From Colwellia sp. Arc7-D (GTDB taxonomy: Bacteria; Pseudomonadota; Gammaproteobacteria; Enterobacterales; Alteromonadaceae): DNA of 64,000 nucleotides. The position numbers and the translations under genes are program-made. Numbering within the stretch: position 1 is the stretch's first letter; every line of letters begins with the position of its first letter. The notes under the pieces were generated by a model that was not told the origin of the DNA, ran no database searches, and saw only the letters and a program-made list of their open reading frames with translations. Positions 6,669 through 64,000 of the stretch are shown piece by piece. The stretch is from positions 2,046,001 through 2,110,000 of the forward strand of contig NZ_CP028924.1 in the NCBI RefSeq assembly GCF_003061515.1, read 5' to 3'.

Positions 6669-6728
6669 ATGAAAGTAGTTAAGTTTTTTACATTTACTAA
6701 TCCTCCATTATCTATGGCGATGGATTAG
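6669..6728 (+). CDS. Possible 19-residue leader peptide
   Basis: A short frame, MKVVKFFTFTNPPLSMAMD, with a good GGAG site nine bases upstream, ending four bases before the start of the histidine phosphatase gene. That downstream gene has no clear ribosome binding site of its own, so translation of this short frame could feed ribosomes into it. No regulatory codon run is obvious. It may also be chance. Confidence 0.3.
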   Translation: MKVVKFFTFTNPPLSMAMD

Positions 6729-6732
6729 TCTT

Positions 6733-7455
6733 ATGTCAGCTATTTATCTTATTCGTCATGGGCAAGCATCGTTTGGTAAAGCTGATTATGATCAACTGTC
6801 TGCTAAAGGCATTAGTCAATCTGAGTTATTGGGTAAATTTTGGCAAGCAATGTCAGCACCTAATAAAGTTTTTACTGGTGACTTACTACGCCATGAGCAA
6901 ACACTGAAAAATTTCTTACAAGGTTATCAAGGCAATCATCCTTCTACGGTTTTACATTCTGGATTTAATGAATTTAATCATGTCGATATGCTAACGCGAT
7001 ATGATGCCCAATGGAAAGATTTTGCTGCCATTGCCGCTAAATACAATCAACAACCTGACGCGAATAAAATATTCCAAAAAGAGTTTTCACTTGCGCTTAA
7101 ACGTTGGGTTAGCGGTAAGTATGATAGCGATTACATTGAAAGCTGGTCACAATTTAAAAAGCGGTGCATTGCTGCGCTACAAGATGTTGTGCACCAAGAA
7201 CTCTTTATTAAAAAAAACGCTGAGAATCTTAACCCAGCTAAAAATATTTGTATCTTTACATCAGGTGGCACTATCTCGGTACTTGTTCAGCACATTCTCG
7301 GCCTATCAGATGAAAATACACTCGCAGTTATTCAACAATTACGTAATACAGGCGTAACTAAATTATTTTATTCAAAAAATAAACTCACTCTTGATTATTT
7401 AAATAATTATGCTCATTTAACCCAAGCGGGTGCAGACTGGGTAACGTTTAGATAA
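6733..7455 (+). CDS. Histidine phosphatase family protein
   Basis: A 240-residue member of the phosphoglycerate-mutase-like histidine phosphatase superfamily. The catalytic YLIRHGQASFG motif (RHG, phosphohistidine) is at residues 5-15; the second half has FTSGGTISVLVQH where the usual second catalytic His position lies in a degenerate context (SGGT rather than SHGG). This form of the family is often found inside acyl-CoA dehydrogenase/APH gene clusters of proteobacteria, where the substrate is unknown. It heads the co-directional catabolic locus and is followed by an SDR gene after 38 bases. Confidence 0.82.
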   Translation: MSAIYLIRHGQASFGKADYDQLSAKGISQSELLGKFWQAMSAPNKVFTGDLLRHEQTLKNFLQGYQGNHPSTVLHSGFNEFNHVDMLTRYDAQWKDFAAIAAKYNQQPDANKIFQKEFSLALKRWVSGKYDSDYIESWSQFKKRCIAALQDVVHQELFIKKNAENLNPAKNICIFTSGGTISVLVQHILGLSDENTLAVIQQLRNTGVTKLFYSKNKLTLDYLNNYAHLTQAGADWVTFR

Positions 7456-41795: not shown

Positions 41796-41886
41796 GGTGA
41801 GATGGCTGAGTGGTCGAAAGCACCGGTCTTGAAAACCGGCAAGGGTTTGTAGCCCTTCTAGAGTTCAAATCTCTATCTCACCGCCA
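41796..41886 (+). tRNA. tRNA-Ser (UGA anticodon)
   Basis: A 91-base class II tRNA. Acceptor arm GGTGAGA pairs with TCTCACC, followed by discriminator G and encoded CCA. The anticodon stem-loop CCGGTCTTGAAAACCGG has anticodon TGA. The long variable arm AAGGGTTTGTAGCCCTT and the T-arm AGAGTTCAAATCTCT are intact. A strong terminator follows. Confidence 0.97.
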
Positions 41887-59933: not shown

Positions 59934-60218
59934 AAGCAATCAGCTTTGATATGTATGCAGTGATATTATTAATAAATCTTATGTGTGAGCTAAATAATTT
60001 AAATAAACCTCAATTCGACACTGTATTTATAGACAGTGGTGGTGCGAATCCCGCTTTATTGTAGAAAGGCAGATTTAATCTGTCTTTCTACATCTATTTA
60101 TTCAGTACCTAACAACATATTGAATGGTAATATTAAATTATGTATATTGATTTGAATAAATATTCATTAGATGGACGTTTTGCTTGTGGAAAGTGGGATA
60201 TTATCTGTCTAATAAGCT
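59934..60218. other. Region between nitrilase-like gene and the cassette array
   Basis: About 285 bases with no gene. It holds one hairpin (60061-60091) and, at its right end, CTGTCTAATAAGCTGTTATG, which loosely resembles the 3' end of the attC sites in the array (CCTGTTAATTAGGCGTTAT). No integrase gene is here, where one would normally lie. Confidence 0.5.
60061..60091 (+). terminator. Hairpin upstream of the cassette array
   Basis: GTAGAAAGGCAGA (60061-60073) pairs with TCTGTCTTTCTAC (60079-60091) with one G-T wobble. It could end transcription from the nitrilase-like gene. Confidence 0.55.
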
Positions 60219-60225
60219 GTTATGT
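60219..60225 (+). other. Left core site of the cassette array
   Basis: GTTATGT is the reverse complement of ACATAAC, the first core site of the attC at 60553, as expected for the entry border of cassette 1. Recombination would occur between G60219 and T60220. Confidence 0.7.
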
Positions 60226-60237
60226 GTAAACGAGAAT

Positions 60238-60558
60238 ATGAGTCAAGAATCTATAAAAGCTAAACTATGTAACGATGCTCTTCTAGTTGCTAAAGAGAAA
60301 GTCGCTATTAATTCAAATAGCCTTCTACCAATGTATCAATCGATAGAAAATCAGCTTCAATTTTTAGTGGATTTCTTCGAGGGTAAAAATAGCGAACACG
60401 CTAAACTTCATACTCTTAATTTTGGTCATTTAGCTGTGCGAGAAATTGAAGATAACGATCCTAAATTTGCACATTTACTTAAAATAGCATTTTATGTAGC
60501 AGATAAAACTGCACATGGGTTAAAGTTAGACGAACAGTTCGTGGCAAATTACACATAA
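60238..60558 (+). CDS. Tsi6-like immunity protein (cassette 1)
   Basis: A 106-residue soluble, helical protein. The central and C-terminal part (QLQFLVDFFEGKN, LNFGHLAVREIEDNDP, AFYVADKTAHGLKLD) resembles Tsi6, the immunity protein for the type VI secretion effector Tse6 which breaks down NAD(P)+. Recognition is from memory of the family. No effector gene is nearby, so it would be an orphan immunity gene. Start at ATG 60238, in the cassette and 18 bases after the recombination point; a TTG upstream lies outside the cassette. Confidence 0.62.
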   Translation: MSQESIKAKLCNDALLVAKEKVAINSNSLLPMYQSIENQLQFLVDFFEGKNSEHAKLHTLNFGHLAVREIEDNDPKFAHLLKIAFYVADKTAHGLKLDEQFVANYT

Positions 60559-60655
60559 CAAGAATTTCAAGCAGGACAAAATACAGTTGGCTTTTTGTTC
60601 ACTCCGTTCACCTATTTTAGCCAACTATATTTTGCCTGTTAATTAGGCGTTATAT
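60553..60655 (+). repeat. attC site 1
   Basis: A 103-base integron recombination site. First core ACATAAC (60553-60559) and last core GTTATAT (60649-60655). Inner arms CAGTTGGC and GCCAACTA pair around a loop; flanks AAGCAGGACAAAATA and TATTTTGCCTGTT pair with extra-helical bases. It strongly resembles the other sites in this array. Confidence 0.85.
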
Positions 60656-60671
60656 TTTTATCGAGGTATGG

Positions 60672-60938
60672 ATGCTATTTAAAATATTATTTCTATTCGC
60701 TGCATTAAAACTACATGATGTTAAATCAGAGCCTTTGAATCCAGCTCTGTTGTTTTGTATCCCTATTTTATTAATTAGCCTTATTTCAGGAACGACATTT
60801 CTTTCATTATTTATTGGTGCGGTTATTATGTTTTGCGTAAGTTATGTATATTTTGGCTTACTTACAAAGTTTAATAAAGGTACTGAGTATTTTGCAATAA
60901 TGGTTGTAGGTGGTGCAGTTTTGGTATTGTTTATTTAA
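60672..60938 (+). CDS. Small membrane protein (cassette 2)
   Basis: An 88-residue protein with three likely helices (residues about 1-14, 24-58 and 68-88). Not recognised as a known family. Start at ATG 60672 with GAGG eight bases upstream. The gene occupies nearly the whole cassette, as usual for integron cargo. Confidence 0.65.
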   Translation: MLFKILFLFAALKLHDVKSEPLNPALLFCIPILLISLISGTTFLSLFIGAVIMFCVSYVYFGLLTKFNKGTEYFAIMVVGGAVLVLFI

Positions 60939-60940
60939 AA

Positions 60941-60990
60941 ATATAACAAGGCAATCAAACGGTAAATTTACAGTTGGCTTTTTTTCGTTC
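60941..60990 (+). repeat. attC site 2, left half, split by an IS
   Basis: First core ATATAAC (60941-60947), the reverse complement of the core that opens cassette 2. CAGTTGGC then runs into the loop, where the insertion sequence starts at 60991. TTC at 60988-60990 is one copy of the target duplication. Confidence 0.8.
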
Positions 60991-61049
60991 TGATCTTGTA
61001 CCACTTTGGTAGACAGTTATTTATTTAATTGTTACCAAAGAGGTTAATC

Positions 61050-61412
61050 ATGGGACATACAAGAAAGCGACATTACAACCAATATTCATTAGCGTTTAAA
61101 CTTCATGCTATTTTACTCTCGTCTCAGCAAGGTGTTTTAGCTAAAGACGTGGCTAGTTCCTTGGGTATTCACCCCATCATGCTCTATCGTTGGTGTATGG
61201 AATACCGTAAAGAGTCATTGTTTACTCATCCGCTTATGAAAAATCATCAAATGGAAAAACCATCCAAAGAGAAGAAGCCCGTCAGTCCCGAAAAGCTTAA
61301 ACTTGCTAAGGCCAATGCGCACATTAAAAAGTTGGAAAAAAAACTAGCTCGCAGCGAAGAGGATATTGAAATTCTAAAAAAGTTCGAGCGGTTCTTAAAG
61401 GAAGACCCCTAG
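61050..61412 (+). CDS. IS3-family transposase OrfA
   Basis: A 120-residue DNA-binding protein. The HTH_Tnp_1 fold is seen in YSLAFKLHAILLSS ... VLAKDVASSLGIHPIMLYRW, followed by a leucine-zipper-like coiled coil (ANAHIKKLEKKLARSEEDIEIL). Start at ATG 61050 with AAAGAGG six bases before; a TTG at 61029 is less likely. A slippery heptamer AAAAAAG lies at 61376-61382 in the right phase (codons AAA AAG), so a share of ribosomes shift to -1 and make OrfAB. Confidence 0.92.
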   Translation: MGHTRKRHYNQYSLAFKLHAILLSSQQGVLAKDVASSLGIHPIMLYRWCMEYRKESLFTHPLMKNHQMEKPSKEKKPVSPEKLKLAKANAHIKKLEKKLARSEEDIEILKKFERFLKEDP

Positions 61413-62266
61413 TTAATTTTACCTTTATCAAAAAGAACCATGCCTTAAGTAATGTCTCAAGATTATGCTCGCTGTTGGGGGTGTCTCGCGGTGGTTACTA
61501 TGCCTGGCATAATCGGCCAGTATCCGCGCATAAAGTCAAAGATAACCAACTTAAGGCTGAACTGATTAAGCAGCACCAAGGCTTTAAACGAGCCTACGGC
61601 GCACCAAGAATGCATGTACAGATAAATCGAGAAGGCCTTAGCTGTAGTCGTCGACGCATCACGAGACTAATGAAAGAGCTTAACCTGTGTAGCTCGACTA
61701 AAAACTTATATTTGCGCTTACCAAATAGAGGAAAACATTACTCAACAACAAGCAATCATCTGCATTATGTCGCTAAGCCAAGCGCAAAGAATCAACAGTG
61801 GGTTGGTGACTTCACCCACATCAGCACTCAAAAAGGTTGGCTCTTTCATGCGGTTGTTATGGATTTATTTACACGTAAATTGATTGGGTGGTCGTTTAGT
61901 CGTCAACGAAATTCTTTAATGACACAAGCGGCTTTAAAGGCAGCCTTAGCAACAGAAACACCAGATAATAATTGTATATTTCATTCAGACCAAGGAATTG
62001 AATATGCGGCGAATGATTTCAAAACTCTTGTGGAAAAGTCAGGTTTTATAAGGAGTATGAGCCGAAAAGCAACGCCGATTGATAATGCGGCGATGGAATC
62101 GTACTTCCATACGTTTAAAGCAGAAGCTATTCATGGCAAACGTTTTAACAATCAAGAAGAGGCGACTGCTGTTATTCAGAAATACATCGCGTTTTACAAT
62201 CAAGAACGATTACATTCAAGTTTAGGTTATACAACGCCTGAAAAATATGAGAAATTAGGACTTTGA
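61379..62266 (+). CDS. IS3-family transposase OrfB (rve integrase domain, frameshift product)
   Basis: The -1 frame is open from the frameshift site (about 61379) to 62266, about 295 residues. The start of the frame reads VRAVLKEDPLVNFTFIK, the usual joint of OrfAB. HTH_21 region (HQGFKRAYGAPRMHVQIN) then the DDE catalytic core: Asp in VGDFTHIST, Asp in FHSDQGIEYA, Glu in NAAMESYFHTFK. The enzyme cuts and joins IS ends. Translation as a separate protein might start at the TTG at 61475. Confidence 0.92.
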   Translation, partial: KVRAVLKGRPLVNFTFIKKNHALSNVSRLCSLLGVSRGGYYAWHNRPVSAHKVKDNQLKAELIKQHQGFKRAYGAPRMHVQINREGLSCSRRRITRLMKELNLCSSTKNLYLRLPNRGKHYSTTSNHLHYVAKPSAKNQQWVGDFTHISTQKGWLFHAVVMDLFTRKLIGWSFSRQRNSLMTQAALKAALATETPDNNCIFHSDQGIEYAANDFKTLVEKSGFIRSMSRKATPIDNAAMESYFHTFKAEAIHGKRFNNQEEATAVIQKYIAFYNQERLHSSLGYTTPEKYEKLGL

Positions 62267-62295
62267 AATGTGTCTACGAAAGTGGTGTAAGATCA

Positions 62296-62347
62296 TTCCT
62301 CAAACATTTTAGCCAACTATAATTTTCCGCTTATTGCGGCGTTATAC
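62296..62347 (+). repeat. attC site 2, right half
   Basis: From TTC (second duplication copy) through TTTTAGCCAACTATAA to the last core GTTATAC (62341-62347). Joined to the left half, without one TTC, it gives a site of about 99 bases with good pairing. Confidence 0.8.
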
Positions 62348-62366
62348 GTACAAGGGAGGTTTGCGC

Positions 62367-62669
62367 ATGAATTTACAGTTTAAGTTAATAATATCTGCAT
62401 TGATTAGTATTCTAGCCAATGGTTGTAGTTCTTATAGCACTGAAGATTATGGAGAAGCTGGTGTTAGTAGAAAAGCAGCTTCATGTGTAAATATGGAACC
62501 AGCTCAGGAGATGAAGTGTAAGGAAAGAGAAGAAAGCTTACTAATAGGGTTGGGTGCAGACGAAAATTGTAATCATCCATATGAGTATGAAAAAAACAGA
62601 TGTAAAAGTGAACAAGCAAAGAAACAAAAGGCACTTGACGAATCACTTAAAAAACACAGCGGTAAATAG
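62367..62669 (+). CDS. Small lipoprotein (cassette 3)
   Basis: A 100-residue predicted lipoprotein: signal helix (IISALISILA) and lipobox NGCSS (Cys about residue 20). The mature part is charged with four cysteines (ASCVN, MKCKE, ENCNH, NRCKS), which may form disulfides. Start at ATG 62367 with a strong GGGAGG site; the frame extends upstream into the attC. No family recognised. Confidence 0.68.
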   Translation: MNLQFKLIISALISILANGCSSYSTEDYGEAGVSRKAASCVNMEPAQEMKCKEREESLLIGLGADENCNHPYEYEKNRCKSEQAKKQKALDESLKKHSGK

Positions 62670-62672
62670 TAC

Positions 62673-62776
62673 GTATAACAATAATTTAAAGCAGGACAAA
62701 ATAAAGTTGGCTGTTTTGTTCACTACGTTCACCTATTTTAGCCAACTCTATTTTGTCCCTTAAATGGGCGCTACAA
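62673..62776 (+). repeat. attC site 3, right core changed
   Basis: First core GTATAAC (62673-62679) matches the opening core of cassette 3. Central sequence is nearly the same as attC 1. The last core reads GCTACAA (62770-62776) instead of GTT..., a change at the recombination point. Confidence 0.8.
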
Positions 62777-62789
62777 GTAAAGGTAATTT

Positions 62790-63044
62790 ATGCATTCTGA
62801 CGAACTAATCAAATCTTTATCTGATAATGGAAATAAGGATTTAGAATCTTCATTACAATGGATTAATCCAATACCTGAAGATGCCTCAGCTTTAATAGAA
62901 AAAATAGATATGGCATTAAATATTGTTAAGTTTTCTAAATCTAGACGCACTGAAGAAGGTGAAGAAACTTCTAATAACCACCTAGATTCGTTAATACGTT
63001 TAAAAGCTGAAATCAGTAGTATTTTAAATGAAAAGTTGAAATAA
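62790..63044 (+). CDS. Hypothetical protein (cassette 4)
   Basis: An 84-residue soluble protein, helical and acidic, with a charged middle (KSRRTEEGEETSNN). No family or motif was recognised. ATG at 62790 with AAAGGTAA upstream. Its cassette has altered cores at both ends. Confidence 0.6.
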   Translation: MHSDELIKSLSDNGNKDLESSLQWINPIPEDASALIEKIDMALNIVKFSKSRRTEEGEETSNNHLDSLIRLKAEISSILNEKLK

Positions 63045-63060
63045 GCTTATCTAAATTTTC

Positions 63061-63159
63061 TTATAAAAATTTGTTAAAGCAGGAATAAACAGTTGGCTTT
63101 TGCTCCTGCGTCGCTTATTTTAGCCAACATACTATTTGCCTCTTATCGTGGCGTTAGCT
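63061..63159 (+). repeat. attC site 4, left core degenerate
   Basis: The place of the first core reads TTATAAA (63061-63067), lacking the conserved AAC. Arms CAGTTGGC and TAGCCAAC and the last core GTTAGCT (63153-63159) are normal. Confidence 0.72.
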
Positions 63160-63177
63160 GTAAAGGGAAACTGAGTA

Positions 63178-63837
63178 TTGATTTCACAATTACCTAAATG
63201 GATAGAAGTCGGCGCGTTCATTTTTGCCTTGATTGCTGGTTGCGTTAATGCGATTGGTTTTCTTAGCTTTGAGCATCAAGCAGTCTCTCATTTAACTGGC
63301 ACAGCTACCTTATTGGGTACAAGTTTTTTAGGTTCTTCTTTTTCTAATATTATCCATTTGCTAGGTATTTTGTGTTCATTTATATTTGGTTCAGCGATTG
63401 CTGGATTATTACTAGATGGTTCAAGCCTAAAGCTAGGGCGACATTATGATACGGTGTTGCTCTTAGAGTCTATTTTGTTACTAATCGCATTATGGTTTTT
63501 ATCTGCCGGTTCAATATATGGTCAATTCTTTGCTTCCGCAGCGTGTGGACTTCAAAATGCATTAGCAACAACATACAGTGGTGCAATAATAAGAACAACT
63601 CATGTCACAGGAATTTTCACAGATTTAGGTATCATGCTTGGCAGGTTTATAAAAGGTGAAGCTCTTGAGTCACGCAAGGCAAAGCTTTTCTTGATTATTA
63701 TTGTCGGTTTCATATTTGGTGGTACTTTAGGCGCATTTCTGTTTGCACAATATCAATTTATGGCATTATTTTTTCCTGCAATAATTTGCCTGTTTTTTTC
63801 GATGTTTTATCGTGTATATGCTAAAAAATACAGCTAA
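63178..63837 (+). CDS. YoaK/DUF1275 family membrane protein (cassette 5)
   Basis: A 219-residue membrane protein with about six helices. Family markers are AGCVNAIGFLSFEHQAVSHLTGTA near the N-terminus (in two parts, GCVNAIGFLS and HQAVSHLTGT) and ACGLQNALATTYSGAIIRTTHVTGIFTDLG (GLQNALAT and RTTHVTG). Role unknown. TTG start at 63178; AAAGGGA lies ten bases before. A large, complete gene for a cassette. Confidence 0.8.
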   Translation: MISQLPKWIEVGAFIFALIAGCVNAIGFLSFEHQAVSHLTGTATLLGTSFLGSSFSNIIHLLGILCSFIFGSAIAGLLLDGSSLKLGRHYDTVLLLESILLLIALWFLSAGSIYGQFFASAACGLQNALATTYSGAIIRTTHVTGIFTDLGIMLGRFIKGEALESRKAKLFLIIIVGFIFGGTLGAFLFAQYQFMALFFPAIICLFFSMFYRVYAKKYS

Positions 63838-63914
63838 CAAGCTGCTCATACGAACACAAACAACTGGTTGAATTGCAACCAACTATTTTATTGCCTGTTA
63901 GCCGGGCGTTCGGT
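63832..63914 (+). repeat. attC site 5
   Basis: An 83-base site. First core AGCTAAC (63832-63838) is the exact reverse complement of GTTAGCT at 63153, the opening of cassette 5; it overlaps the stop codon of the gene. Arms AACTGGTTG and CAACCAACT; last core GTTCGGT (63908-63914). Shorter and more divergent than the others. Confidence 0.8.
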
Positions 63915-63943
63915 TTTCTATAACTCAGGTGAATAGGGATATT

Positions 63944-64000
63944 ATGACGAATAAAAGTACAAAATTGGAAAGAGTAGGGTTTGTATTAGTTGCACTCATA
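63944..64000 (+). CDS. Start of a gene in cassette 6 (cut by window end)
   Basis: Nineteen codons starting at an ATG with AGG upstream: MTNKSTKLERVGFVLVALI. Residues 11-19 look like the start of a membrane helix. The rest is outside the window, so it cannot be identified. Confidence 0.55.
   Translation, partial: MTNKSTKLERVGFVLVALI

Follow-up and report, generated by a model that had tools for sequence, protein, structure and literature searches.

A chromosomal cassette array of Colwellia sp. Arc7-D headed by an attI-type module and carrying an IS3-family element within an attC site

Introduction

To what kind of integron does a row of gene cassettes belong when it has an attI-type module at its head and no adjoining integrase gene, and how did an insertion sequence (IS) come to lie within one of its attC sites? 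These questions are raised by a stretch of 64,000 nucleotides (hereafter the window), positions 2046001-2110000 of the 4,305,442-base single-contig genome of Colwellia sp. Arc7-D (labelled G000), whose right end, 60219-64000, is occupied by a cassette array. There is little sequence conservation among attC sites, which the integron integrase, IntI, reads as folded single strands. We think that the array is probably part of one chromosomal integron system with three attI-led arrays, and that its second site, attC2, was split by a member of an attC-targeting lineage of the IS3 family.

The cassette array and its attC sites

The region 60219-64000 is a genuine array of mobile gene cassettes. Judged from the sequence and the list of open reading frames (ORFs), it contains five attC sites, all on the plus strand and each 3' of a plus-strand ORF, as an earlier sequence-only reading of the window had described, and the array extends past the window edge to about 65013. 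The exact complementarity of the 5' and 3' cores, which had been claimed for cassettes 1, 2, 3 and 5, was found again (7/7 bases in each), cassette 4 having 1/7. As a control, the cores of neighbouring sites were exact in 13/26 pairs in the array at 1934 kb of the genome, one of the 26 spanning an omitted split attC, and in 10/25 pairs in the array at 2435 kb, whereas wrongly matched pairs were exact in 20/703 and 45/651 cases, respectively.

Both checks proposed in the sequence-only reading, a covariance search and folding of the bottom strand, were carried out. A covariance model trained on 21 attC sites of this genome, including attC1, attC3 and attC4, with attC5 outside the training set, recovered all four of these sites (scores in Table 1). 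In bottom-strand DNA folds, attC1 and attC3 were far better than their shuffled counterparts and attC5 moderately so, but attC4 was not, and on the basis of these z values we call attC4 degenerate and attC5 atypical. The central arms had been said to recur in four sites; we found exact copies in three sites each, with CAGTTGGC present in attC 1, 2 and 4 and TTTTAGCCAACT in attC 1, 2 and 3. A spurious array should show no attC above threshold and no further repeats to the right of 64000, which is not what was found: in that direction there were a weak model match (20.9 bits, E 0.215) and, unlisted by the model, a degenerate attC-like site. The suggestion of a chromosomal integron with homogeneous attC sites thus stands insofar as the sites are largely homogeneous ones of such a system, and has to be amended insofar as no intI gene adjoins the array, which is one of at least nine attC regions in the genome. 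An Rfam scan of the window gave a single match to non-coding RNA, a tRNA gene at 41796-41883, and returned no attC family.

An IS3-family element inside attC2

Missing from the sequence-only reading was a 1,305-bp IS inside attC2. It has the organization of the IS3 family, with a helix-turn-helix OrfA and an rve-type DDE OrfB in two frames, which may be fused through a frameshift, and with TG...CA inverted ends and a short target duplication within the 3-4 bp range (Table 1). A whole-genome search found one other copy, at 1937889-1939193, in an attC of the 1934-kb array, and both copies (2/2) lie at CGTTC^CTCA of the attC terminal loop with TTC duplicated.

In nine stretches of the genome and the window, we also located two lone 25-base stretches that match the left end of the IS at 20/25 positions, the next best sequence that is not an IS end matching at 18. 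One, at 2110386 (L017:6386-6410), lies in the loop of the degenerate sixth attC of the window array, and the other, at 1948461 (L020), at the 3' edge of an attC; they are possible scars of earlier insertions.

Related elements at 53-55% identity were found in the genomes G300 (three places), G139 and G191, and one at 43% in G237; the second contig of G300 matches plasmid CP013100.1 of Candidatus Tenderia electrophaga. With G000 included, relatives were present in 5/369 genomes of the class at 1e-75, in 10/394 of the order at 1e-60 and in 4/398 of the phylum, and in the order of G300 they were present in 1/11 genomes, G300 itself. Plasmids yielded one relative above 1e-60 and 712 records at 1e-48, and the plasmid matches listed at the latter threshold were about 39% identical, apart from the Tenderia plasmid CP013100.1. 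No relatives were found in the viral contigs or phages searched. A scan of genome contigs supplied at least 80 loci, 32-42% identical, which served mostly as outgroup.

A tree of 107 OrfB rows from the relative searches and the contig scan was built by a quick method, after copies (L138, L144, L146 and L084) and OrfB pieces shorter than 230 residues had been dropped. All 25 rows given an attC-insertion label (7 as loop and 18 as arm) fall in a clade of 30 rows with a support of 100, and of the 77 rows outside the clade, 13 of which were unclassifiable, none was so labelled. L058, labelled as an arm insertion by distance (23 nt), was placed in the loop branch (support 92) and was counted as a loop locus in the later tests. 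The five unlabelled rows within the clade looked attC-like by eye, L064 and L069 on both sides and L124, L156 and L147 on the right side only.

The flanks show two target modes, one in or near the tip of the hairpin (CG-NNN^) and one 23-25 nt past the TAAC of the 5' core. For 33 loci of the clade whose ends are defined, 11 of them in the loop branch (including the two G000 copies, three loci from G300 and two from G191), and 73 loci outside the clade, we compared the target sites by fixed-distance, centring and CG tests, all chosen after the flanks had been seen. TAAC lay 22-25 nt from the IS in 17/33 in-clade loci and in 0/73 outside; TAAC and GTTA were centred on the insertion in 9/11 loop-branch loci and in 0/73 outside (Fisher 1.5e-10); and CG stood five bases ahead of the insertion in 8/11 loop-branch loci versus 3/73 outside (Fisher 5.6e-7). 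With the attC model, further attC sites were detected in 20 loci within the clade (E up to 0.5 or 0.1) and in two, L127 and L095, that lie outside it. In the genus g40, which we take to be Vibrio, close copies were present in 12/227 genomes at 22 places, with a 3-bp duplication at 15 of these; TAAC was found 23-25 nt ahead of 17/22 copies and another core ahead of three (CAAC twice and ATAC once), leaving L181 and L193 as misfits. Among these copies, L196, one of the 17, lies within a tandem TAAC repeat and is perhaps not in an attC, and L192 has no GTTA in the following 150 bases. An earlier attC test, which asked for R-box pairing of at least 6/7, was dropped as too strict, with clear attC sites (L144 and L146) scoring 0, since R' belongs to the next cassette.

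These target sites may be explained as follows. The IS in attC2 would belong to a lineage recognizing attC sites, the transposase of which, we suspect, recognizes the folded hairpin rather than plain sequence. IS3 elements transpose via a circular intermediate, and a transposase of the loop branch would meet an extruded or single-stranded attC and join the IS circle into its tip three bases after CG, duplicating those three bases without disrupting the L or R arm of the attC, such that the split attC2 may still be functional; a transposase of the arm branch would meet the attC at a set distance from the R box. That the clade instead reads plain double-stranded motifs which chance to lie in attC is possible, if rather doubtful: it is favoured by CG-NNN^, present at the loop in 8/11 loci, and by the conserved TAACAA...GATTC context of many g40 arm-branch sites, but CG-NNN on its own is far too short to confer attC specificity, the loop targets otherwise share little, and the loop branch occurs, by our reading, in both orientations relative to attC (reversed in L139 and L146), which the symmetry of the tip would permit. 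It is very improbable that the ISs are found in attC through the tolerance of arrays for insertions, a survivor bias without any targeting, since the insertions lie at the tip, or at a set position, of an attC of about 100 bp and not in the larger cassette bodies, and the target tests placed none of four other IS3 elements from the same Tenderia genome (L148, L150, L151 and L152) in attC; arrays are, for all that, dispensable, and ISs are often reported in them (PMC12444791, in the part of the text available to us).

Outside the clade, three IS3 elements lie 14 nt after GTTA, namely L127, beside an attC array, L111 and L148, for which a further target mode or chance may be responsible. As a third target mode, with GTTA 14 nt before the IS, the pattern was rejected: only L127 adjoins a model attC, and the flank of L148 reads as a gene end.

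attI-type modules and a single integron integrase gene

The identity of the module at the head of the window array is 88.5% (208 bases) to the start of the 1934-kb array and 90.4% (177 bases) to the sequence that separates intI from the first cassette in the 2435-kb array. Aligned, all three contain CTGT-N8-ACAG, the pattern of a LexA box, together with a long hairpin, of 15 pairs in the window copy, and an end that hardly varies; the names attI and LexA box are applied here as putative ones. Promoter-like matches in the module were in no excess over chance (4 found versus 3.0 in shuffles). The module was absent from the other stretches of G000 examined, the rest of the genome not having been searched for it.

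Only one of the 13 Phage_integrase matches in the genome was identified as an integron integrase gene, intI at 2435555-2436520 (TIGR02249 448.6 bits, cut-off 265), and it is also the sole one of the 13 that was run through TIGR02249. This gene is divergent from the 2435-kb array, the only one of the three module-led arrays that it adjoins, and lies 329 kb from the window array. Beside the latter, tblastn with IntI (2104-2124 kb stretch, E up to 1) found no intI; the sole match in that stretch was a 38-residue piece of another integrase (L017:17155-17268), 11 kb to the right of the array. For attC sites, 150 of 3384 first-look candidates across the genome were scored and matches kept at E up to 1, giving at least 88 matches, of which seven were the opposite strand of listed sites, and hence at least 81 places in at least nine regions. 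The largest regions are 1934.7-1951.5 kb (at least 28 places, one of them half of a split attC) and 2417.9-2435.0 kb (at least 27), and the window array has seven, two of them being the halves of attC2. Compared with a complete integron, the window array has at least two same-direction attC sites with matched cores and, at its head, what appears to be an attI, the module being common to the intI-linked array up to the crossover, and it lacks an adjoining intI. Clusters of attC sites without a nearby integron integrase are known as CALINs (clusters of attC sites lacking integron integrases); the window array resembles a CALIN in having several attC sites, more than the two that suffice, and no adjoining intI, but differs in being headed by an attI-type module with a LexA-type box.

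Exact cores in the two large arrays are concentrated behind the module. The 1934-kb array has exact cores in the first 15 of its 28 cassettes and decay beyond (the split attC and the attI-side cassette included), and the 2435-kb array has them in 9 of the first 10 pairs and in 10/25 overall, again with decay beyond (Spearman -0.69); behind all three modules, the first cassette has exact cores. One whole cassette is common to the 1934- and 2435-kb arrays, with 99.0% identity over 627 bp (approximately 1935083-1935708 versus 2429103-2429729). The most probable reading of these data is a model in which one IntI, coded far from the window array, acts in trans and adds cassettes to all three arrays, in each case at the attI, and in which the arrays would therefore grow at the left end and age rightward.

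Alternatively, the window array could be the remnant of a second integron that lost its intI and became a non-recombining CALIN with a fossil attI, and the 1934-kb array could have had the same fate. The modules start at a LexA-type box just upstream of the expected start of intI, and attC4 and the sites to the right of 64000 are degenerate, both of which such losses would explain. We nevertheless consider them unlikely, because the 1934-kb array, itself without intI, has its first 15 cores exact and carries a cassette 99% identical to one in the intI array, suggesting that it was recently active, and no remnant of intI was found beside the module (tblastn, E up to 1).

Weighing the explanation

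Several points weigh against a single integron system combined with an attC-targeting IS3 lineage. As to the integron, the window array is too short for a gradient to be seen (core matches 7, 7, 7, 1 and 7), it has no cassette in common with the two large arrays at the search setting used, the IS alone being shared, the action of IntI at the window attI is deduced and not observed, and two losses of intI that left fossil attI sites would equally yield the modules. As to the IS lineage, the attC labels were assigned with the flanks in view and not blind; hairpin shuffles of single sites were weak and had little power (p 0.02-0.29 for 10/11 loop-branch sites; L142 0.03); two of the 11 loop-branch sites (L140 and L141) are off-centre; an exact duplication is missing in L140, L141, L145, L142 and L058; and 5/22 g40 places have no TAAC at the expected distance.

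We are nearly evenly divided, leaning slightly against it, over a wider reading of the same data, in which the IS3 branch is an integron parasite, occurring across many proteobacteria, that reads the folded attC hairpin and enters it either at the tip or at a set distance from the R box, and in which one integrase serves three attI platforms over half a megabase in the present genome. If true, a lineage of DDE transposases that finds attC would be an independent protein solution to the reading of attC, and such transposases would be a natural probe of when and where attC hairpins form in cells; in addition, as tip insertion keeps the recombination arms intact, cassettes might carry such elements along when they move. 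With one integrase serving three attI platforms, there would be several first-cassette positions and therefore several cassettes expressed simultaneously, and it would become clear how an array can stay active when it has no intI nearby.

Comparison with known systems

The nearest analogues of the present IS are the IS1111-attC elements and the IS3 elements that target repetitive extragenic palindromic (REP) sequences. According to the available parts of the sources, IS1111-attC elements target the attC of gene cassettes (PMC11187229, PMC12444791, PMC11616780), and the DEDD transposase of the IS110/IS1111 type is guided by a seekRNA (PMC11187229). The present IS likewise inserts in attC and so works alike, but it is not a member of this group, since it matches IS3 and rve models and is a DDE-type IS3 element with OrfA and OrfB, a terminal-loop target and a 3-bp duplication, instead of having a DEDD transposase and a seekRNA. 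The IS1111-attC group is reportedly to be credited to Tetu and Holmes 2008 and Post and Hall 2009. The REP-targeting elements, IS1397, ISKpn1 and ISPsy8 (PMC1525189, in the part available), share with the present clade the IS3 family and a specificity for palindromic DNA; compared by description, however, their targets are REP sequences, whereas those of the present clade are attC sites, in which both genome copies lie. In the literature searched, we found no IS3-family element described as specific for attC, and the present clade looks like an attC-specialist IS3 lineage that has not been reported before; this coverage did not extend to ISfinder or to most subscription journals, where such a specificity may be recorded.

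Other mobile elements in or near cassette arrays differ further. Group II introns, which also occur at attC (PMC7923331, in the accessible part), are introns with a reverse transcriptase and a ribozyme, whereas the insert described here consists of OrfA and OrfB, is a DNA transposon and gave no match in the Rfam scan. In the parts available of the respective papers, the superintegron array of Vibrio cholerae, an example of a sedentary chromosomal integron, is described as holding two 1,261-bp IS3 copies, one in the coding sequence of a cassette and one in the last cassette, without duplications (PMC11023631), and IS3 copies are described in or near Vibrio cassette arrays (PMC11023631, PMC1382264). 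As far as described there, that superintegron resembles the present system in its homogeneous attC sites, mostly unknown cassette genes and IS3 copies in the array; it differs in that the present genome has intI at only one of three attI-led arrays, and the IS3 copies are set apart by their description.

Features of the array and its chromosomal place

The features of the window array are collected in Table 1. The attI-proximal cassette is cassette 1, with the Tsi6-family gene resembling immunity genes of type VI secretion systems (T6SS).

Table 1. Features of the cassette array (window coordinates)
Feature	Position	Strand	Remarks
attI-type module (about 204 bp)	60019..60222	+	putative LexA-type box 60021-60036; terminator-like hairpin 60060-60092; conserved stretch to GTTA crossover 60219-60222
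Cassette 1 ORF	60238..60558	+	Tsi6-family, T6SS immunity-like; PF18660 81.8 bits, cut-off 26.9
attC1	60553..60655	+	103 bits; fold z -4.31
Cassette 2 ORF	60672..60938	+	88 aa; no family above cut-off
attC2 left half	60941..60990	+	ends with target duplication TTC 60988-60990
IS3-family IS	60991..62295	+	1,305 bp; imperfect 25-bp inverted ends; TTC duplicated on both sides
IS OrfA	61050..61412 from first ATG (open from TTG 61029)	+	helix-turn-helix; PF01527 38 bits, cut-off 24.1
IS OrfB	61373..62266	+	297 aa open frame, own start codon 61475; DDE; PF00665 75 bits; NF033516 284.9 bits, cut-off 160
attC2 right half	62299..62347	+	after second TTC 62296-62298
Cassette 3 ORF	62367..62669	+	100 aa; no Pfam/NCBIfam match
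attC3	62673..62775	+	95.6 bits; fold z -3.97
Cassette 4 ORF	62790..63044	+	84 aa; 74% identical gene at the same chromosomal place in congener G009
attC4	63061..63159	+	degenerate 5' core; 55.4 bits; fold z +0.30
Cassette 5 ORF	63178..63837	+	DUF1275 membrane protein; PF06912 127.1 bits
attC5	63832..63914	+	atypical; 29.1 bits; fold z -1.72
Cassette 6 ORF start	63944..64000, runs on to 64357 outside the window	+	DUF4267; PF14087 37.2 bits, cut-off 27.8

Six further small attC clusters or single sites were found in the genome, at 159-161, 1788, 2258, 2719-2722, 2803 and 2830-2835 kb, without an attI module in the stretches examined; tblastn (E up to 1) found no IntI in the examined stretches of these small arrays. 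Dead intI genes beside them were considered and rejected, the ORFs there being unlike IntI by eye and tblastn giving no match.

The window array is flanked by genes for a CN hydrolase and an isochorismatase. Of 17 genomes of the genus surveyed, nine, including G000, had the isochorismatase at E 1e-30, and among the eight other loci, the CN hydrolase gene was within 1.5 kb in two (G006 and G009), the spacing between the two genes being about 214 bases in G006 and about 590 in G009. Neither intI nor the attI module was present in the stretches of these two congeners that were examined. Between the flanking genes of G009 lie the relative of the cassette 4 gene listed in Table 1 and, by eye, an attC-like relic (L203 near 6685-7230).

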